Origin: Rhodobiaceae bacterium
Lineage (GTDB): Bacteria > Pseudomonadota > Alphaproteobacteria > Puniceispirillales > Puniceispirillaceae
Direction of reading: 5' to 3'
NCBI GenBank assembly: GCA_018624035.1
Contig: JAAZUU010000016.1
Span: 1-32,505, forward strand
Length of the DNA stretch: 32,505 bases
Below the pieces are notes generated by a model. It searched no databases. It saw only the letters and a list, made by a program, of their open reading frames with translations, and was not told the DNA's origin. Position numbers and translations under genes: made by a program. Positions 1-11,850 of this stretch are shown here, piece after piece. Position 1 is the first letter of the stretch; the number at the start of each line of letters is the position of its first letter.

Positions 1-116
1 GGATCAGGGCCCAGGGTTCAGGCAAGGTTGCAGGTAAGGTTTTGACAGTTGACCTGTAGGAGCGGTTTGCTAAGCTGTTGATATAGCTGGATTCAGTCAA
101 TGGCTGGTGCTTGTGA

Positions 117-146
117 GAGGCTTCGAACCTCCCTTCACCCGCTCCA
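117..146 (+). other. tRNA-Gly 3'-end remnant, candidate attachment site
   Basis: The last 16 bases (131-146, CCCTTCACCCGCTCCA) equal the usual 3' end of a bacterial tRNA-Gly: part of the T stem, the acceptor strand CACCCGC, then the discriminator T and CCA. A TTCGAA T-loop core lies at 122-127, but two extra bases separate it from the T stem. No matching 5' acceptor strand GCGGGTG is seen upstream, so this is not a full tRNA. Such 3' ends are typical att duplications left by integrases, and an integrase stub follows within 230 bases. That it is an att scar is inference; the match to the tRNA end is seen directly. Confidence 0.55.
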
Positions 147-371
147 TTTTCCAGACCAGAAGGTCCGTGGACCGTGGTTCAAGTGACTGTTTCCAGACGA
201 TTAACGTCCTGGAACAGGAGCTTGGTCCTACGGTCTTGCCAGAGGCTACAACGACAGCTTCTGACAGTTTCAGTTTGACCGACGCGCTGGCGCTCTGTCA
301 CCGGTTGAAGGGTGTCGCTGGTCAGAGCGTCACTCTGGGCAGCGCGCAGGGTCCTGGAAACCGGCTCCACC
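147..371. other. Non-coding or decayed stretch between att-like site and integrase stub
   Basis: No convincing intact gene is present. One plus-strand reading frame here encodes a segment with SLTDALALCHRLKG, which faintly resembles the start of the core-binding region of some tyrosine integrases. It runs into an LH just before a run of five C at 370-374, beyond which the integrase signature continues in another frame. This could be the collapsed 5' part of the same integrase with a large internal deletion and a 4-base length change, but the similarity is weak. Confidence 0.3.
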
Positions 372-533
372 CCCTCCTTCCGGCACAGCAGGCGGGATCG
401 CTTCCGTGCGATTGAATGCCCTGCCGACCTCATCGATGCCATCGGTGGTTGGACGACCGAAGGCGTCGGCCATCACTATGGCAAAGGGCATAGCCTTACC
501 GTCATGAATGGGTGGATGGAAAAGCTCCCGTGA
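372..533 (+). pseudogene. Tyrosine integrase, C-terminal fragment
   Basis: The frame ending at the TGA 531-533 reads SFRHSRRDRFRAIECP and then IGGWTTEGVGHHYGKG, ending GWMEKLP. This is the C-terminal catalytic part of a phage-type tyrosine recombinase: the HxxR-region arginine box (SFRH), a GGW where many relatives have GH/GW, and the Tyr nucleophile in HHYGKG. The His expected just before SFRH is replaced by Pro at a C-run (370-374). Everything upstream (core-binding domain, first catalytic Arg) is missing in this frame. The gene cannot encode an active integrase. It lies between the tRNA-Gly-like scar and an AT-richer gene, which fits a degraded integrative element. The identification rests on motif recognition only. 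Confidence 0.72.
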
Positions 534-698
534 AGACATTTATCGGCTAGCGTGCGACATCATCGCTAAAATGTGTCTTTTGGCACAGTTGTGTTGTGAA
601 ACCACAAGAAACGGCGCTACGATCGAAGGAATTATCCAATAATTACACGGCGCTGAATTTCAGCATGCCACACCCCATGAATTAATTAAGGCGATGTC

Positions 699-3600
699 AT
701 GAAATTATTCTCAGAGGTTCCTTTGAGGTTGATGCTGGCTTTAACTGCAATTTTTCTTGTAGCGCAGTCAGCGTCCGCTCTCACCTTCAAAACCAAAAAC
801 AGTTCCGAGCATGACGATGTTCAGAGACGAACACCGGTCCAGATGCAATCAAGCCCTATTGATGCCTTAACGCTTCCAAATGAGTGGCCATTTAAACCTT
901 CAAACAAACTCTCACTGATAAACAGGCAGCATCTTTCAGACGAACTCCAAGATGACAACTTCCTGTCCGGCGGTCAGGCAGGCCGTTGTAGTGAGATTGG
1001 CACATCTGATTCGTCGCCAGAGCAACTCGCGTCATGCATTCACGTTGTCGCTCTAGAATTCTATCGGTCCGGTTCGATGGCACATTTCGAACCCACGCTT
1101 GTGAATATCGCCAAAACAGACCCTTTGACCTATGTCACGAAGGCCAATGATTTTTCACCAGACCGTTATAACGCCAGAGCGGCGATGACCGTGTATGGAG
1201 CCTTCTACGCCTATTATTACGACTTCTTTGATTTCGATAGTGAGACCAGGCAGCTGGTTGACAATTATTTTGAGCGCAAGCTGACATATCTCAATATGGA
1301 TGCTGTTGGTGAATACAATCGACAACGCTTCTGCGACCCCAGAAAGCCAAAACGGATCGGTCTAAAGACCGATGGTCGGGCAGACATAAATACCTGCGAG
1401 TCAAACCGTTGGAAGGCCACAATTGCCCAGCTGTTGCTTGGCATGCGCTTGAAAAACGAGACGTTGTTCCAGCGGGGTATCTACAACACTAAGTTCATGC
1501 TTCTGTTTTTTGATGACGAAGGCATATTCATCCCATGGGCAGTCCGCGGGGCGCTGGCCATACATTATTCAAATGAAGTGCCGCGCTTCCTCAGCAAGCT
1601 CACCGAAATCTATCATGCTCTCGGTTATGATTTTCTGGAGCATGAACTTGAAACTGGCCTTCGGGTAAAGGACATCTACAAGACCTATTTCAATATCTAC
1701 GACAACAAGGACATTCTGAACAAATACGCAAAGCGGCGTTATGCCGAGAAGGGTGAGAGTTACGCGCAGTACCAGAAGCGGTCGACTGAAGAAGAGCTTC
1801 GTCGATGGAATCTCACCAAAGAAAGTTTCGCACGTGAGAGTATGCGCTACATCACAAGTTATCGGCCTGATCTTGAAAGCCTGATTGCATGTGATTTCCG
1901 TTTGCGCGACGAAAACAATGAACCGCAACGGCTGGTATCCAGTTTTTCAGCGATAGACAGTTACGAACTTTTCCTCGCCAACTTTTCAGACAAGCAAGCT
2001 CCGGAGGAGCACTGCCAGAAATTTCGCGGCAAAAAAAATCAAACCGAAATCAATCAGCCTGTCGAAGTTGCGTCAGATGTCCAGAGTGACGCAAACACCC
2101 AAAAAGCCACAGAATCGAAGGTAGATGGTGACAGCGCGCATAATGCCGGTGGCCCGCAGCCTTTCAGGTTTGGGTTCGCCGAAGATGAGGAGCCATTCTC
2201 ATTAGGGCAAGACATCGGATTTGGCCTGAATTACCAGCATCAGATGGGGCGGACTTTTCAGGAATGGGGGGCAACTGTTTCCACAGATATCGTCCGACTG
2301 GGTGACAGGGCGCTGAAATTCGAAACCAGAGAAGGTTTCTGCGGCCATAACTCTTCTTGGAGTGATTGTGATAATGGCCGCCAGAGACATGAGTTTGGCT
2401 CCAGATATTCTGTCAGCCAGAAAGCCTTCAACCTAAACGAGGAATACTGGCATGCCATCAGCGTCTATGTTCCACGAGATATAACGTTTGCCAAACCTGT
2501 CAATACGGGAATCTTTCAGTTCTTTGCGCCGCCAACCGGCGCGTGGATGTTCCACTACTCGGACACCCTGGGCTTTGAGGTTGTGAACTCAAGTCATGGA
2601 CCAGATCACGATGAGGATCATCGGGACAGTGTATTGGTCCTCCCAGAAGATTTCGTCGGGAAATGGAATGACATCGTCATTCAGGCCAATCACAGCAGGG
2701 ACCCAGATGGGTATATGAAAATCTGGGTTAATGGTGACCTTGTGCATGACTACAAAGGCATAAGCACGCGCCCCAGCGGAACGCCCTTCTTCAAGTTTGG
2801 CATTTATAAAACGGCGACTCCAATACCAAACCCTGACTACAACAATGGTGCAAATTTCGAAGATATGCATGTGTTCTATGACGAAATAAGGTTTGCCGAA
2901 GCTTGCGAAGATCTGGTGTTGGATGATTTGGGTTATAGCTGCGAAAAGCTTCTGCAAAGCGAGTTCAAAGGCCCAAATTATCAGAATGAAAAAGCGCCTG
3001 GCACAAAAGCATTCAGCACAACGGAACCATTCAACAAAGCTGGGGAATGGTCGCCCGAGGACTTGAGTGTCTATGGACCTGACGATCAGGTATTTCTGAT
3101 TTCCTATTTCACAAAGCTTCTCGGTGAAGCCCACCCAGGGTTGGAAGCAGAGGACATAGCAGTTTTTCCAGGCGGCAAAACTGCAACCAACAAAGAAGCC
3201 ATATCACCAATCTTGCGCTTCGGGGACAACTCCGAAGACGGTGTGGAGAAAGACAGTAAAGGAAGCGGAAGGGACGCATTGGACATTCGGTTGACGGAGA
3301 ATGGCATGTTGTCGATCTCTGGAAGAATGCAGCTGTTCCCCGGGGAAGCTTTCATCAGGGTTGGGCTGAAGGCGCTCGCCCCCAATGGTGAGATGGAAAT
3401 TCCTTATTATGCCGGCGATAAAGTCTTCATCAGGTGGAAGTCGGTCTCGGACTCTGGCACCGAAGGCGAGCAGGAATTTGCAGTGCAAGATTCAAAGCCA
3501 AAATATGATCGCACACGCGCCGGCCTGTCCATGAGGTTTGAATGCCTTCTGACAGCGCTGACAGACATCGGGGAAGAGAGCCTCCCGACCGACCAAGAGA

Positions 3601-3770
3601 TCGATCTTGTCATCGACGGCCTAGAAGGAAATAAGTTCTACAGAACAAAACGGCATCTGGAAAAGCTCGGGATGTCAAAAGACGCCGTAAAAGCGCACAA
3701 GGCGGCCCTTCTGCGGCTGGTAAATTTTGAAGGCACGAACGAAGCCTTCTGCGCCAAGCCTGTCAGGTGA
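699..3770 (+). CDS. Secreted bipartite polysaccharide lyase-like protein
   Basis: 1023-residue exported protein. A Sec signal peptide ends near residue 27 (AQSASA). AAGG eight bases upstream supports the ATG. Residues about 75-420 look like an alpha-helical alginate-lyase-type domain, with a DDEGIF...RGA.A.HY segment and a following G.DFLEHEL stretch. A polar Gln/Asn/Asp-rich linker (about 445-490) leads to a jelly-roll-like region (about 492-745) resembling heparinase I/PL20-like lyases. Its marks are an RHEFGS segment, EYWHAISVYVP, GKWNDIVIQANHS, a KIWVNG strand and FKFGIYK. The last 250 residues are unrecognised. Role inferred: outer or extracellular depolymerisation of a uronate-containing polysaccharide; the substrate cannot be told. 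The gene is visibly poorer in G+C than its neighbours (27 of 60 bases at 1201-1260) and sits beside an integrase stub, so acquisition by transfer is likely. Fold assignments are from memory of family patterns. Confidence 0.62.
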   Translation: MKLFSEVPLRLMLALTAIFLVAQSASALTFKTKNSSEHDDVQRRTPVQMQSSPIDALTLPNEWPFKPSNKLSLINRQHLSDELQDDNFLSGGQAGRCSEIGTSDSSPEQLASCIHVVALEFYRSGSMAHFEPTLVNIAKTDPLTYVTKANDFSPDRYNARAAMTVYGAFYAYYYDFFDFDSETRQLVDNYFERKLTYLNMDAVGEYNRQRFCDPRKPKRIGLKTDGRADINTCESNRWKATIAQLLLGMRLKNETLFQRGIYNTKFMLLFFDDEGIFIPWAVRGALAIHYSNEVPRFLSKLTEIYHALGYDFLEHELETGLRVKDIYKTYFNIYDNKDILNKYAKRRYAEKGESYAQYQKRSTEEELRRWNLTKESFARESMRYITSYRPDLESLIACDFRLRDENNEPQRLVSSFSAIDSYELFLANFSDKQAPEEHCQKFRGKKNQTEINQPVEVASDVQSDANTQKATESKVDGDSAHNAGGPQPFRFGFAEDEEPFSLGQDIGFGLNYQHQMGRTFQEWGATVSTDIVRLGDRALKFETREGFCGHNSSWSDCDNGRQRHEFGSRYSVSQKAFNLNEEYWHAISVYVPRDITFAKPVNTGIFQFFAPPTGAWMFHYSDTLGFEVVNSSHGPDHDEDHRDSVLVLPEDFVGKWNDIVIQANHSRDPDGYMKIWVNGDLVHDYKGISTRPSGTPFFKFGIYKTATPIPNPDYNNGANFEDMHVFYDEIRFAEACEDLVLDDLGYSCEKLLQSEFKGPNYQNEKAPGTKAFSTTEPFNKAGEWSPEDLSVYGPDDQVFLISYFTKLLGEAHPGLEAEDIAVFPGGKTATNKEAISPILRFGDNSEDGVEKDSKGSGRDALDIRLTENGMLSISGRMQLFPGEAFIRVGLKALAPNGEMEIPYYAGDKVFIRWKSVSDSGTEGEQEFAVQDSKPKYDRTRAGLSMRFECLLTALTDIGEESLPTDQEIDLVIDGLEGNKFYRTKRHLEKLGMSKDAVKAHKAALLRLVNFEGTNEAFCAKPVR

Positions 3771-3919
3771 ATACAAAGCCAGCGACCAACGTTCTGGGAC
3801 AGGGGCTTGTATGCCCATGATGTGGGCAAGCTCTCGGGTATATTTCCGGAATCGCAACAGTTCGGTTGAACACCGGCCCTGCATATTCAAGAATGGTCGG
3901 AGCAACCCGGGTCTGAACC

Positions 3920-4516
3920 ATGACACTCACAACATTGTTCGAAGAATTGTGTGATCTCCTTTCCGAGGATTACCCGATTGAGAGAAATGCACGGGCAGAA
4001 CTGCGGCGGGCGAAAACAGAGGTCAGTCTGCCGCGTGACCCGGCCTCTTTGCCCAGCCCCTTTCTCGAGGTCATGAACCGCGACAGCGCCCATCCCATCT
4101 GTCATCTCATAGGCAGGCTGCCCGTCCATTGGGCGCCGCCAAAGACGTCCTCGGACCCTCTCTATCAGGAACACAGTCATTTCAAGGCACATGTCGAACT
4201 TCTCGGGCCGGACGGGCTTGTGGCCTCCTCACGGATCCGTCTCGGTCTGTACGGTATGCTGCCGCATTCTGAATATGGGCTTCGCACGCATCCTGCAGAG
4301 GAAACCTACCTGATGCTGGCCGGGAGTGCGTTCTGGAAGCTTGCAGACGCTCCCTATCGGCAACTGTTTACCGGCCAGAGATCCCATCATCCGTCAATGA
4401 TGCCGCACGCCACCCGAACCGGGGATGAAGCCTTCATGTCGATCTATATTTGGGATGGGGATATCGCGACAGATCAATACAGGTATTTCGGTCTTCCGGA
4501 GGACGAGGGAAGCTGA
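3920..4516 (+). CDS. DMSP-lyase-family cupin (DddQ/DddL-like)
   Basis: 198-residue single-domain cupin, close in length to DddQ (about 200). DMSP lyases of this family split dimethylsulfoniopropionate into dimethyl sulfide and acrylate in the cytoplasm. The sequence shows the family core THPAEETYLMLAG followed by a second motif, SHHPSMMPHATRT, and an IYIWDGD strand. Placed against the known pattern HxHxxxExY...H, the protein offers His124, Glu128, Tyr130 and His163, with Tyr119 upstream. The first His of HxH is Arg122 here. That could weaken metal binding or mean a related but different substrate. There is no strong Shine-Dalgarno before the ATG. A zinc alcohol dehydrogenase follows 43 bases downstream on the same strand, probably co-transcribed. 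Family membership is fairly sure; actual DMSP cleavage is not. Confidence 0.72.
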   Translation: MTLTTLFEELCDLLSEDYPIERNARAELRRAKTEVSLPRDPASLPSPFLEVMNRDSAHPICHLIGRLPVHWAPPKTSSDPLYQEHSHFKAHVELLGPDGLVASSRIRLGLYGMLPHSEYGLRTHPAEETYLMLAGSAFWKLADAPYRQLFTGQRSHHPSMMPHATRTGDEAFMSIYIWDGDIATDQYRYFGLPEDEGS

Positions 4517-4559
4517 GGTCGAAGAGCCGGAATCAAGCCAGATATTGTTGGGAGGTGAC

Positions 4560-5603
4560 ATGCGCGCTGCGATCATCACGGAATATGAGAGGCCTCTGAA
4601 GATTGCGAACGTCGCTGATCCCGAGTTGCCAAAAGACGGAATCATCATGAAAGTCCGGGCGACGGGGGTCTGTCGCAGCGACTGGCACACATGGATGGGG
4701 CACTATCGCGACCAGATCTCGTTGCCTCTGATTCCGGGTCATGAGATGGCCGGTGATGTCATCGAGGTGGGTCCGGATGTGACCGGACTACAGCCGGGTG
4801 ACAGGGTGACCGTTCCTTTCGGTCTTGCCTGTGGACGCTGCCATATCTGCCTCGACGGGAATCACCAGAGTTGCCATGAGCAGGTGCAGCCAAGCACCGA
4901 TTTTGACGGCAGCTTTGCAGAGTTCATCGCCTTGCCGCGGGCAAGCATCAATGTCATCAAACTTCCCGATACGGTCGGATATGCCGAAGCGGCCAGCCTC
5001 GGTTGCCGGTTTATCACGGCGTTCAGGGGTGTCGTTGAACAGGCGGCGGTCCGACCGGGAGACTGGCTCGCGGTTCACGGCTGTGGAGGTGTCGGGCTGT
5101 CCGCGGTGATGATCGCCGCGGGGATGGGCGTCAATGTGGTTGCTGTCGATATTGATGATGCAACCTTGGGCAAGGCTTGCGAGTTCGGGGCGGCGGCGAC
5201 TGTCAACGCGCTGCGTTCACAGGGCGTTCCCGAGGAGATTGTCGAAATGACCGGCGGCGGCGCCCACGCTTCGATGGATGCGCTTGGCAGCACGGTGACC
5301 TGTCAGAATTCCATTCTCTGCTTGCGAACTCTGGGACGCCACGTTCAGGTCGGATTGATGAAGGACAGGCACGCGCACCCGGAAATACCGATGGGTACGG
5401 TCGTTTCAAAGGAAATCGACATTCGCGGATCGCGCAGCATGTCACCGAAGAACTACCCTTCCGTCTTCAACATGATCAAATCGGGGGTTGTGGCTCCAAA
5501 GTCATTGATCGGGTGCGAGCTGAGTCTTGAAGAGGGAGCGGAACTGCTGACACGAATGGATGAGTTTCCCGGAACGGGCGTCGCGGTCATTACGTCTTTC
5601 TGA
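4560..5603 (+). CDS. Zinc-dependent alcohol dehydrogenase (MDR family)
   Basis: 347-residue medium-chain dehydrogenase/reductase. The start is fixed by a strong GGGAGGTGA just upstream of ATG 4560, although the frame is open further upstream into the cupin gene. Catalytic zinc ligands are Cys38 (GVCRSDWH), His61 and Glu62 (PGHEMAG). A structural zinc lobe has four cysteines (91, 94, 97, 105). The Rossmann motif GCGGVG precedes a VVAVDID strand whose Asp favours NAD over NADP. Oxidation of an alcohol, or reduction of an aldehyde, is expected; the substrate is unknown. Being directly behind a DMSP-lyase-like cupin, it may process a C3 product of that reaction. The intact zinc sites argue against it being the zinc-free acryloyl-CoA reductase AcuI. 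Confidence 0.85.
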   Translation: MRAAIITEYERPLKIANVADPELPKDGIIMKVRATGVCRSDWHTWMGHYRDQISLPLIPGHEMAGDVIEVGPDVTGLQPGDRVTVPFGLACGRCHICLDGNHQSCHEQVQPSTDFDGSFAEFIALPRASINVIKLPDTVGYAEAASLGCRFITAFRGVVEQAAVRPGDWLAVHGCGGVGLSAVMIAAGMGVNVVAVDIDDATLGKACEFGAAATVNALRSQGVPEEIVEMTGGGAHASMDALGSTVTCQNSILCLRTLGRHVQVGLMKDRHAHPEIPMGTVVSKEIDIRGSRSMSPKNYPSVFNMIKSGVVAPKSLIGCELSLEEGAELLTRMDEFPGTGVAVITSF

Positions 5604-7256: not shown

Positions 7257-8449
7257 CAGCCTCTTTCCCTTGTCACGAGCTTGTCGATCAGGCCGCCAAG
7301 CCCCTGCGGCGCATAGATTGTGACGACGACGAAACTCAGACCCAGAAGCACAAGCCACCAGTCGGTCCAGATGATGGTCGCAAAGCCAAGTGGAATGTCC
7401 GGGGCCTGGCCACCGGTGAAATAGCTCGACAGCAAGGAGACGAAGGCAGCGCCGATCACCGCGCCATAGATGCGCCCCCGTCCACCGATGGCCACCCAAA
7501 CCGCCAGATAGATCGAGGCGATGGGTGCCAGCTCGGTCGGGTTGATGATTCCCGCCTGAGGGTAATAGAGGGCGCCTGCGATCGCCGCGATCACCGCGGT
7601 GAGAACAAAAATGAAAAGTTTGTAGCTCTCGACATTGTAGCCGAGAAATCGCACCCGCGCCTCGTCATCGCGGATGCCGCGGATGATGTTCCCCAGCTTG
7701 CTGCCCACCACCGCCGACGCCATGATGTAGGTGACGGCGAGGGCCAGCCCGCTGGCCAGAAAGAAGATGATTGACAGAATCGATTGCGGGACATGGTCCA
7801 GCCCCGGGATATTCTGCAGCCCTGACAGCCCGTTATTGCCACGAAGGCCGCTGTCGTTCTGAAGCAGATACAGTGACAGGGCCAGCGTCATCGCCTGGGT
7901 GAGAATCGACAGGTAGACCCCGTTCACGCGCGAGCGGAAGGCAAGCCAGCCAAACACATAGGCCAGCAGGCCGGGCACAAGGGCAATGAAGGAAAGCTGC
8001 ACCCAGAACAGGTCGGCAAAGGCCCAGATCGCGGGAATCTCGGCGCCGCCGACAACACCGAAAATCTGTGTCCCGACAGCCTCGCTGATCTCCACGGGCG
8101 TTGGCGGAAGGACGTTGTTCTGAGCCGCCTCGATGACGATCATCCTGGTGCGGGCGAACATCATCCACATGCCGATCATGTAGCCGCCAAGGGCGAAAAA
8201 GGCAAAATGGCCAAGTGACAGGATTCCGCAGAATCCCCAGACAAGATCCATGGCGATGGCGATCATGCACAGACACAGGGTCTTGCCCAATGTCTTGATG
8301 AAACTGGTTGAGATCAGGCCGATCCCGAACCCTTCCCCGAGAATTGTGACGGCAAGGCAGACACATGCCAGCGCGCCAAGGAAGATCATGAGTGAGGGGT
8401 TGCGAAGCAGATGCCGCGTCAGCACCGTTCTCTGCAGAAGTTCCGGCAT
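7256..8449 (-). CDS. urtC: Urea ABC transporter permease UrtC
   Basis: 397-residue integral membrane permease of the LivM type with about ten hydrophobic spans. Recognisable stretches are WGFCGILSLGHFAFFALGGY in the N-terminal half and AVWVAIGGRGRIYGAVIGA near the C-terminus, both typical of UrtC. The ATG at 8449 has GGAG eight bases upstream, inside the last codons of urtB. The frame continues upstream but overlaps urtB. UrtC pairs with UrtB to form the urea channel. The gene overlaps urtD by one base. Confidence 0.93.
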   Translation of the reverse strand: MPELLQRTVLTRHLLRNPSLMIFLGALACVCLAVTILGEGFGIGLISTSFIKTLGKTLCLCMIAIAMDLVWGFCGILSLGHFAFFALGGYMIGMWMMFARTRMIVIEAAQNNVLPPTPVEISEAVGTQIFGVVGGAEIPAIWAFADLFWVQLSFIALVPGLLAYVFGWLAFRSRVNGVYLSILTQAMTLALSLYLLQNDSGLRGNNGLSGLQNIPGLDHVPQSILSIIFFLASGLALAVTYIMASAVVGSKLGNIIRGIRDDEARVRFLGYNVESYKLFIFVLTAVIAAIAGALYYPQAGIINPTELAPIASIYLAVWVAIGGRGRIYGAVIGAAFVSLLSSYFTGGQAPDIPLGFATIIWTDWWLVLLGLSFVVVTIYAPQGLGGLIDKLVTRERG

Positions 8450-8451
8450 GG

Positions 8452-10530
8452 CTAGGTCTCCACGGCCCGGCCCCTTTGCGCGATGATACCGCGCGGCCGG
8501 AACTGGATGAACAGGATGATGAAGATGATCATGTAGGTCTGCGCCGCCAGCGTGTTTGACGGGTTGAACCATTCGATCCCCTTTTGCAGCGAGCCGATCA
8601 TCGCCGCGCCGGCAAGGGTGCCCCAGATATTGCCGACGCCGCCGACCACCACCGTCATGAAACTCTGCACGATGTAATCGGCACCCAGTTCGGAGGTGAC
8701 CTTGGAATAGAGGCCGATGGCGACTCCGGCGATGCCGGCAATCCCCGACCCGAAGCCGAAGGTCAGCATGTTGATACGGTCGGGATTGATTCCCATGCTG
8801 GCGGCCATCATCGGGTTCTGCGTCACCGTCCGTGTCTCGAGCCCGAATCGTGTGCGCTTCATTACATAAAGAAGAAGCCCGAGGAACATCAGCGCGAGGC
8901 AGAAGATGGCGATCCTGATGTTGCTGATGGCAAGCACGTCATTCACCGCAAATGCCCCGTCAAGCCAGCTCGGGGCTGTCAGGGGGCGCGCCTGCGTGCC
9001 GAAGATGTTCTTCGCAAGCTGCTGCAGCGCGATGCTGATGCCGAATGTTGCCAGGAGGGTTTCCAGCGGCCGCTTGTAAAGATGCCGGATGACAAGCCGT
9101 TCCATGGCCACACCAGCGGCAAAGGTGACGATAAAGGCCGCCGGCACGGCGATGGCGATGGACAGTGTATAGCCGGGAACGAGCAGCTGTACGACATATC
9201 CGGTATAGGCGCCCATCATGATGAATTCGCCATGCGCCATGTTGATCACCCGCATCACGCCAAAGGTGATGGCGAGGCCGATCGCGGCAAGGAAGTAAAT
9301 CGAGGCAAGGCTCAGCGCATCCAGCAGCAGATCGAGATATTTGTAGAGCGCCACCCTTGTCTGTATCTCGTTCAGCACATCATGTGCCGCACCCGTGACC
9401 AGCGGTGACGGATTGTCGTAGAAGGCGAAAAAGATGGCGCCCTCGACGGCCTGCTGGCGTTGCAGCGCCGAGACAAGCGCCGGCGCACGCCCCTGATCGA
9501 CAAGCTGTTGATAAGCGGCATCGCGTGCATTGTCGTTATCGAGATCGGCCACGGCAAAGCTGCCGACCCTGCCGTCAATGGCGGCCTCCACAAGCGCCTC
9601 GTCGCGCATGCCGCGTGTCACGAAGGGGGGCGCCAGGCCCTGCGCCACCATCATGTCATAGGCGGCCATCACGCTCATCTCGGCATCCTTGCCACCAATG
9701 GCGGACATCCTGCCCGCCGTGCCGTCGCCCTGTCTGGTCGTGCGGCCGGGAATGATCACCCGCGCGATATTCACACCATCGGGGAGTTTCGTCGCAACTG
9801 ACACCGTGCTCGCCAGTACCGGGGTCAGCGCTGCCCGAACGTCAAGAGACAGATCACCGGCAAGGCTTCTTATGGCGCCTTCAACCTCGGCTTCGTCGGT
9901 GCCATGCGCCAGCATGCCGAACACATAGGCCTTTTCCATCTGCGATTTCAGGGACGGGACTTTTTCCCTGGTGATGGCAGCTTTCAGAGGCGCAAGATGT
10001 GACGGCTGGATGTCGCGAAGAAGGGTCTTCAGCGTTGTTTCACGAATGGCCGGGTCGGGGTTGCCCAGCTGGAAGGGGACAAGGGTGGCCGCAATCTTCG
10101 ACCGGACGCCGCTGTTTGGCTTGATCTGACGGACCGATTTGGCCGGTACAATCCCGATCTCCTCGCCGGTGACAGCGTCACGGATCAACAGCTGTTTCTT
10201 GCCGCTGGCCGTCTTGGCGGCCTTTTCGGCAAGAACAAACTGTCCGGTCTTTTTGATGAAATAGAGTTCTTTGGCTTGCCAGCGGGTCAGGAACGCCTCG
10301 GCCTCATCGCCGCCATGTTGGCGAAGCTGTTCGAGAACCGGACCAACCGTCTTTGAAGAGCTCTTCGCGATCAGCCCGGCATTTGCCTGGAGAAGCTCCT
10401 CGAAGCCGGCCTTGGCGATGGCCGGGTGGATGGCCGGTATCAGCACCAGCAGAACAAGGGCGGCCAGCACGGCGGAAATAAATCTGTGCACGGTATGCAA
10501 TCCATCTGAAGACGTGGAGCCCGGAGACAT
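8452..10530 (-). CDS. urtB: Urea ABC transporter permease UrtB with long N-terminal region
   Basis: 692-residue protein. The C-terminal 300 residues (from about 395) are the LivH-like permease, with FGVMRVINMAHGEFIMMGAY and VVGGVGNIWGT. Residues about 1-40 contain a signal-like hydrophobic segment. Residues about 40-390 form a soluble, presumably periplasmic region with HEAT-like helical stretches, as in other UrtB proteins. The whole is longer than the roughly 520-550 residues I know for many UrtB proteins. The start ATG lies inside a perfect 10-bp hairpin whose other arm carries the GGAG ribosome site, so initiation may be controlled by folding. A GTG 14 codons downstream, just before the hydrophobic segment, is an alternative start. 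Confidence 0.9.
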   Translation of the reverse strand: MSPGSTSSDGLHTVHRFISAVLAALVLLVLIPAIHPAIAKAGFEELLQANAGLIAKSSSKTVGPVLEQLRQHGGDEAEAFLTRWQAKELYFIKKTGQFVLAEKAAKTASGKKQLLIRDAVTGEEIGIVPAKSVRQIKPNSGVRSKIAATLVPFQLGNPDPAIRETTLKTLLRDIQPSHLAPLKAAITREKVPSLKSQMEKAYVFGMLAHGTDEAEVEGAIRSLAGDLSLDVRAALTPVLASTVSVATKLPDGVNIARVIIPGRTTRQGDGTAGRMSAIGGKDAEMSVMAAYDMMVAQGLAPPFVTRGMRDEALVEAAIDGRVGSFAVADLDNDNARDAAYQQLVDQGRAPALVSALQRQQAVEGAIFFAFYDNPSPLVTGAAHDVLNEIQTRVALYKYLDLLLDALSLASIYFLAAIGLAITFGVMRVINMAHGEFIMMGAYTGYVVQLLVPGYTLSIAIAVPAAFIVTFAAGVAMERLVIRHLYKRPLETLLATFGISIALQQLAKNIFGTQARPLTAPSWLDGAFAVNDVLAISNIRIAIFCLALMFLGLLLYVMKRTRFGLETRTVTQNPMMAASMGINPDRINMLTFGFGSGIAGIAGVAIGLYSKVTSELGADYIVQSFMTVVVGGVGNIWGTLAGAAMIGSLQKGIEWFNPSNTLAAQTYMIIFIILFIQFRPRGIIAQRGRAVET

Positions 10531-10587: not shown

Positions 10588-11850
10588 CTAGTAGATCGAC
10601 TTCAGCTGAACGCAGGTCTTTGTGGCGGTGTTGTACATGCCGCACTCAAGTCCCTGCCAGTCCGATACCAGTACCTTGGATTCCGGCAGGAAATCGGTCC
10701 ATGCGTCACCGGGAACCTCTTCGGTCTGGCTGATGATGTCAAACTGGCCATCATCCTGGATCTCGCCAATCAGGACCGGCTTTGCCAGGTGATGGTTCGG
10801 CAACATCTCGGCGACCCCGCCCGTCAGGTTGGGGAACGTCAGGCCATACATGTTCTTGCGCACCGCATCGACATCGGTGGTGCCGGCCTTGGTGGCGGCT
10901 TCGACCCACATGTTGAATCCGATATAATGCGCCTCCATCGGATCGTTGGTCACACGGTCGCTTCCCATCTTCTCTTTCCACGCCTTGATGAAGGCATCAT
11001 TGGCCTCGCTCTCTGCGGACTGGAAGTAGTTCCAGGCAGCCAGATGGCCGACCAGGTTCGTGGTGTCGAGACCGGAAAGTTCTTCCTCGCCGACCGAGAA
11101 AGCCACAACCGGAATGTCGTCAGCCGATACACCGGCAGCCGCAAGCTCTTTGTAGAAGCCGACATTGGCGTCACCATTGATGGTCGAGATCACGCCGACC
11201 TTCTTGCCGTCAGCGCCAAGCGCGACCACGTCAGCGACAATTTTCGACCAGTCGGAATGGCCGAACGGGGTGTAGTTGACGAAGATGTCATCTGCGGGGA
11301 TGCCCTTGTCCTTCAGATACTGCTCAAGGATCTTGTTGGTCGTACGAGGGTAGACATAATCGGTGCCAAGAAGCGCGAATTTTTCAACGCCAAGCTCTTC
11401 GAGATAATAGTCGGTTGCCGGGATCGCCTGCTGGTTCGGCGCGGCGCCTGTGTAGAACACATTCTTCGAGCTTTCCTCACCTTCATACTGAACCGGATAG
11501 AAGAGCAGGCCGTTCAACTCCTCGATGACGGGAAGCACGGATTTCCGCGATACAGATGTCCAGTTGCCGAAGATCACGTCAACTTCGTGGACGGTGAGAA
11601 GTTCCCGCGCCTTTTCAGCGAACAGCGGCCAGTCAGATGCCGGGTCGACAACGACCGGAACGATCTTCTCACCCAGAAGGCCGCCCTTGGCGTTCTGCTC
11701 TTCGATCAGCATCAGCATGGTGTCCTTGAGGGTTGTCTCGGAAATCGCCATGGTGCCGGAAAGCGAATGCAGAATTCCGACCTTTATTTCGGCCATGGCT
11801 TCGCTCGCAACGGCGCACATCAGCGCGGAAGCAGCAATTATTTTTCTCAT
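10588..11850 (-). CDS. urtA: Urea ABC transporter substrate-binding protein UrtA
   Basis: 420-residue periplasmic binding protein of the Leu/Ile/Val-binding type. The signal peptide ends near residue 20 (SEAMA). The mature start EIKVGILHSLSGTMAISE, the FGNWTSVSRKSVLPV segment and NGLLFYPVQYEGEE are typical of UrtA. It is the first gene of urtABCDE. AAAGAG lies about eight bases before the ATG. A sigma-54 promoter about 130 bases upstream suggests nitrogen-limitation control through NtrC. No urease genes are in the window. Confidence 0.95.
   Translation of the reverse strand: MRKIIAASALMCAVASEAMAEIKVGILHSLSGTMAISETTLKDTMLMLIEEQNAKGGLLGEKIVPVVVDPASDWPLFAEKARELLTVHEVDVIFGNWTSVSRKSVLPVIEELNGLLFYPVQYEGEESSKNVFYTGAAPNQQAIPATDYYLEELGVEKFALLGTDYVYPRTTNKILEQYLKDKGIPADDIFVNYTPFGHSDWSKIVADVVALGADGKKVGVISTINGDANVGFYKELAAAGVSADDIPVVAFSVGEEELSGLDTTNLVGHLAAWNYFQSAESEANDAFIKAWKEKMGSDRVTNDPMEAHYIGFNMWVEAATKAGTTDVDAVRKNMYGLTFPNLTGGVAEMLPNHHLAKPVLIGEIQDDGQFDIISQTEEVPGDAWTDFLPESKVLVSDWQGLECGMYNTATKTCVQLKSIY

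Follow-up and report, generated by a model that had tools for sequence, protein, structure and literature searches.

The locus poses two questions: what an exported chain with two lyase-type regions does for the alphaproteobacterium that encodes it, and how its gene came to lie beside the remains of an integrase. The window, i.e. the whole stretch of DNA that was analysed (32,505 nucleotides), is an entire 32.5-kb contig of a 2.75 Mb genome in 207 contigs. The open reading frame of the protein (P0001) is real, with an ATG start and 1023 codons, and its Sec signal peptide, MKLFSEVPLRLMLALTAIFLVAQSASA, was read by eye. The large exported chain announced in an earlier note on this DNA is therefore present, and its parts, all on the forward strand, are as follows.

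699..3770, + strand: gene for the exported three-module protein P0001 (open reading frame)
699..779, + strand: signal peptide, residues 1-27 (sequence)
783..2033, + strand: PL5-type alpha toroid, residues about 29-445 (profile and predicted fold)
1401-1409, + strand: toroid Ser235-Asn236-Arg237
1545-1547, + strand: toroid Arg283
1566-1568, + strand: toroid Tyr290
2034..2153, + strand: polar linker, residues about 446-485 (sequence)
2196..2948, + strand: PF14099 / PL20-like jelly roll, residues about 500-750 (Pfam and PDB matches)
2517-2519, + strand: jelly-roll Gln607
2805-2807, + strand: jelly-roll Tyr703
2880-2882, + strand: jelly-roll Asp728
2949..3494, + strand: stretch without detected relatives, residues about 751-932 (no match in Pfam, PDB and genome searches)
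3495..3767, + strand: 90-residue C-terminal module, residues about 933-1022 (alignment and profile distribution)

The N-terminal region is predicted to adopt the fold of the PL5 alginate lyases. As a single sequence, residues 229-346 match alginate lyase A1-III (E 0.0037), and a five-member toroid profile reaches E 1.2e-6 against A1-III chains. The AlphaFold2 model of residues 29-445, built from five sequences, is of moderate confidence (pTM 0.70, mean pLDDT 61). A Foldseek search with this model placed the PL5 enzyme A1-III on top (E 9e-5), and VIA-align gave Z 17.0 over 282 residues for A1-III, about 15-16 for other PL5 structures and 11-13 for PL17, PL38, PL33 and PL15. The Pfam family PF05426 was not reported for P0001 at E values up to 10; its cut-off is passed by the relatives L026, L027 and L028. 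With the PL5 alginate lyases (A1-III, 1qaz/1hv6; AlgL, 4ozv; Smlt1473, 7fhu) the toroid thus has in common the alpha toroid itself, at Z about 15-17, and an active-site Arg and Tyr: in the profile alignment Arg239 and Tyr246 of A1-III correspond to Arg283 and Tyr290, position 283 being Lys in three toroid relatives. It differs from them in its low identity (at most 14% in structural alignment), in being fused to further modules and in the catalytic Asn-His dyad. Asn191-His192 of A1-III land on Ser235-Asn236 or, with a shift of one residue, on Asn236-Arg237, and the His is missing in either register. Tyr290 and the cysteines 97, 113, 212 and 233 are invariant in the eight members of the toroid clade compared, across which no His is conserved. 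"Alginate-lyase-like", as the domain had been described, is therefore true of its fold and not of its chemistry.

The missing His bears on the substrate. In alginate lyases of PL5, PL15, PL17, PL38 and PL39 a His is retained at the matching place, and the alginate activity of GAGase III requires its His188; other PL35 enzymes carry Asn at that site, which goes with glycosaminoglycan activity (PMC12088678). These PL35 lyases (GAGases) are likewise toroids with Asn replacing His at the neutraliser site. The likeness is an analogy of one residue: PL35 enzymes additionally possess a large beta-sheet domain and another His, and no sequence match was found between P0001 and PL35. By this analogy alginate appears a poor guess as the toroid substrate and is not favoured. 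The toroid site could also be dead, distant members varying even in the Ser-Asn-Arg motif. One toroid relative (L081, in genome G041 of the same order) is preceded by genes for a sugar-type ABC transporter, an aldo/keto reductase and an amidohydrolase, a neighbourhood that gives a weak hint of sugar use.

The second lyase-type region follows a polar linker, as had been proposed. PF14099 (Polysacc_lyase) matches residues 521-731 with E 1e-24 and 88 bits, against a curated cut-off of 29.9. In the PDB its closest match is 2zzj, a PL20 glucuronan lyase from Trichoderma reesei, at E 1.3e-4 for the single sequence and 2.5e-10 for the profile. Gln607, Tyr703 and Asp728 fall in the profile alignment on Gln91, Tyr200 and Asp222 of 2zzj, in numbers counted off the alignment. 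We take Tyr200 to have a role in the PL20 active site. His53 of 2zzj, presumably the proposed catalytic His, lies opposite Ser552 in the single-sequence alignment, in a stretch outside the profile alignment. A cleft Gln and a calcium-binding Asp have been described for the 2zzj fold (PMC3764139). The PF14099 match and the aligned cleft Gln, Tyr and calcium Asp are hence common to both proteins, whereas the P0001 jelly roll is distant, leaves the proposed His unaligned and sits between the toroid and the tail of a 1023-residue chain. Of the expected "heparinase I-like jelly roll", the jelly roll stands, and the heparinase I identity is not supported by the PDB sequence searches, which gave no heparinase I match and 2zzj as the only jelly-roll lyase.

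Standalone relatives of the jelly roll, of about 260-350 residues and mostly 27-37% identical, are common in the order. PF14099-like lyase genes, several of them with signal peptides, are likewise present in twelve contigs of marine origin that have been classed as viral (L082-L093). As to a known phage origin, P0001 itself found no match among 50,697 phage records and only E 0.03 at best in a PHROGs search, and a search of viral contigs found no relatives of the toroid or of the C-terminal module.

Two differing lyase-type regions, a toroid by profile and predicted fold and a jelly roll by PF14099 and 2zzj, are thus present in a single chain as had been noted. Their fusion was searched in 61, 136, 385 and 398 genomes (overlapping samples) and was not found elsewhere, bearing in mind that incomplete genomes could conceal one; the matches were single modules or, in L025, a toroid with the C-terminal module. 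As far as these genome sequences indicate, P0001 is built of modules that otherwise occur apart.

The tail, announced as 250 unrecognised residues, turned out to be of two kinds. Residues 751-932 have no detected relatives, and no fold is claimed for them because the structure model of residues 486-1023 (jelly roll and tail) was too poor for a fold search (mean pLDDT 35). The last 90 residues, by contrast, are a recurring module restricted to the order. Aligned to the C-terminal ends of five other proteins they are 44-56% identical, and 15 columns are invariant, among them those of the two cysteines Cys949 and Cys1018. The module is carried by the PL5-like proteins L022, L023 and L025 and by the proteins L024 and L071, which lack Pfam matches; a weaker copy (E 1.9e-13) is seen on the FG-GAP-repeat protein L077 when one stop is read through. 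A profile search over 136 genomes of the order detected the module in 7, and over 385 genomes sampled across the class it matched the window's own genome only. Comparison with Pfam and the PDB gave nothing significant (best PDB E 0.23). The module thus appears to be new and has so far been seen only within its own bacterial order. From its position and cysteines one may guess at a role in retention or assembly outside the cytoplasm; the signal peptide and the conserved cysteines fit an exported protein.

Other features of these exported proteins were observed in passing. L071 (positions 1501-3066 of its locus) is an exported protein of 522 residues that bears the C-terminal module and has no matches in Pfam and the PDB; in it SMSIGKS, noticed by eye, hints at an SxxK serine hydrolase. 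In L022 the gene of the PL5-like module-bearing protein is flanked by two IS1595-type transposase genes (7892-8545 and 10883-11536), a further mobile setting. Right after the signal peptide (residues 27-31 of P0001), the start (A/G)LTFK, often LTFKxG, is common to the otherwise differing exported proteins P0001, L070, L055, L029, L025 and L065; one (A/G)LTFK protein is encoded in the bacterium's own genome (contig C150).

What the protein does is best approached from its two lyase-type regions. P0001 probably cuts uronic-acid polysaccharides. The jelly roll, with its Gln, Tyr and calcium Asp, is the likelier lyase, the toroid lacking its His. By beta-elimination it would break down a uronate polymer with 1,4 linkages, perhaps a uronan of the glucuronate type, which is likelier than alginate. 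The toroid may either act as a lyase too, though with altered chemistry, or bind the same polymer, and the C-terminal module may serve in retention, assembly or binding outside the cytoplasm. The proposed "bipartite polysaccharide degrader" is accordingly borne out in its bipartite lyase-type architecture, while "degrader" is an inference; the toroid may serve in binding or be an altered domain.

Three readings divide the work between the domains differently. That the jelly roll is the sole enzyme, with a toroid that has lost catalysis and binds or positions the substrate, is a real possibility, a little short of an even chance. It agrees with the varying dyad site and the want of a conserved His in the toroid clade, the more so as the PL5-like proteins L022, L023 and L025 of the same order retain Asn-His; against it speak the retained Arg/Lys, the Tyr290 invariant in the eight members compared and the active PL35 glycosaminoglycan lyases with Asn in place of His (PMC12088678). 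Retention of active-site residues, Arg and Tyr in the toroid and Gln and Tyr in the jelly roll, would suit a bifunctional lyase whose two folds attack a single uronate polymer, at one and the same bond or at successive ones; each of the folds, which a linker connects within the exported chain, belongs to a lyase family that acts on 1,4-linked uronans. The dyad His missing from the toroid weighs against this possibility, and we rate it as clearly less than an even chance. Finally, both domains could be inactive as lyases and P0001 a surface or matrix binding protein made of lyase-derived folds. Cip1, a structural relative of 2zzj, showed no convincing lyase activity (PMC3764139), and the C-terminal module does occur on unrelated exported proteins, including the FG-GAP-repeat protein; the cleft Gln, Tyr and calcium Asp retained in the jelly roll make this reading unlikely.

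The second question, how the gene arrived, is addressed by its flanks, which hold the following features.

117..146, + strand: tRNA-Gly(GCC) 3'-end-like sequence (identity to the genome's own contig C196)
160..224, + strand: upstream integrase-leader copy (91% identical to own contig C123, 88% to L108)
363..533, + strand: remnant, the last ~50 codons of a DUF6538-type tyrosine integrase (comparison with the L023 integrase)
3788..3845, + strand: downstream integrase-leader copy (84% identical to L108, 82% to contig C123)

Positions 117-224 are 89% identical to contig C196, in which ARAGORN identified an intact tRNA-Gly(GCC) gene; 117-146 are the counterpart of its 3' end. In C123 and L108 the upstream leader runs into a DUF6538-type integrase gene (for C123 the translation was read). 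The integrase stub that had been reported beside the gene is indeed there, 57% identical to the C-terminus of the full-length DUF6538 integrase of L023 (E 7e-16). Just 3' of the lyase gene, 3788-3845 corresponds to the continuation of the L108 leader, and its 22-nt core (3788-3809) repeats the end of the upstream leader (203-224) with 19 of 22 positions identical, so that remnant and gene are enclosed by two leader copies. These repeats were found by comparison with integrase leaders; a gapless repeat search did not show them, and an RNA-family search of positions 1-5000 gave a single chance-level match. Tycheposons are an example of tRNA-linked integrase islands in marine bacteria. The tRNA 3' end, tyrosine integrase, cargo gene and repeated leader of such islands also occur here, with the differences that the integrase is of another family and only a remnant. 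The lyase gene is apparently cargo of a tRNA-Gly-linked integrase island, and its two leaders might stem from neighbouring islands in tandem instead of a single element.

Base composition points the same way: the gene is AT-richer than its neighbours, as had been stated, with 49.2% G+C against 59.5% in the remaining window and GC3 of 0.55 against 0.62-0.75 in seven other genes of the window. At L021, which holds a toroid homologue of 60% identity with 44.6% G+C, a low G+C is not exceptional, the flanks being at 43-50%. Directly 3' of the lyase gene, positions 3920-4516 encode a DMSP-lyase family protein (PF16867, E 3.2e-15), followed by a zinc alcohol dehydrogenase gene; other downstream reading frames, named from the translations read, resemble urea-type and peptide-type ABC transporters, and no polysaccharide-utilisation cluster is visible among the neighbouring genes of the window.

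The association with integrases extends beyond the window. Elsewhere in the order, 8 of 42 lyase-related genes lie within 1.5 kb of a DUF6538-type integrase where 0.23 would be expected, an enrichment of about 35-fold in a count compiled by hand with the window left out and the G132 stub taken in. The Poisson P value of 1.6e-10 is a guide only, since the test assumes independent genes and was chosen after the pattern was seen. In the tightest cases (G061:C15, G065:C4, G096:C9, G045:C91 and G113:C25) a jelly-roll lyase gene is convergent with a DUF6538-type tyrosine integrase, and the matched stretches are separated by about 20-70 bp. Twenty other integrase regions have mixed neighbours, which speaks against lyases as the usual integrase cargo and for their being enriched among accessory cargo.

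Vertical inheritance, with a low G+C that stems from the gene's own constraint and an accidental integrase remnant, could draw on the frequency of integrases in the order (87 of 136 genomes). It is very unlikely in view of the leader copies on both sides, the tRNA 3' end, the patchy distribution, the enrichment of integrases beside related genes and the absence of close full-length homologues from 11 genomes of the same genus, many of which are incomplete. The horizontal arrival suggested by the earlier note is well supported by the two leaders, the tRNA-Gly 3' end, the integrase remnant and the low G+C.

Overall, the computations show where the modules begin and end, to which fold or family each lyase-type region belongs, how widely the tail module is spread, and which repeats and integrase remnant surround the gene. 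The account that best joins them is a carbohydrate-active protein that an alphaproteobacterium, probably of SAR116 type, exports by the Sec route, built of otherwise separate modules, presumably active on a uronan and encoded by a gene that a tRNA-Gly-linked integrase island would have delivered as its cargo; taken as a whole we consider it rather probable. The more far-reaching proposal is rather doubtful, namely that a single chain turns two unrelated lyase folds on one glucuronate-type polymer, bears a new 90-residue module that is restricted to the order and shared with other exported proteins, and owes its spread to a tRNA-linked integrase system which in SAR116 bacteria has taken up secreted lyases again and again. 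The kinds of lyase to which toroid and jelly roll belong were known, and new are the accessory C-terminal module and the combination in one chain. In surface seawater SAR116 bacteria are an abundant group, and what they contribute to the breakdown of acidic polysaccharides is poorly known. If the account given here is right, the toroid would be a test case of how loss of the alginate-lyase His retunes a PL5-type fold, the tail would be a new module of exported proteins, and the integrase linkage would show a route by which lyase genes are exchanged among SAR116 bacteria.
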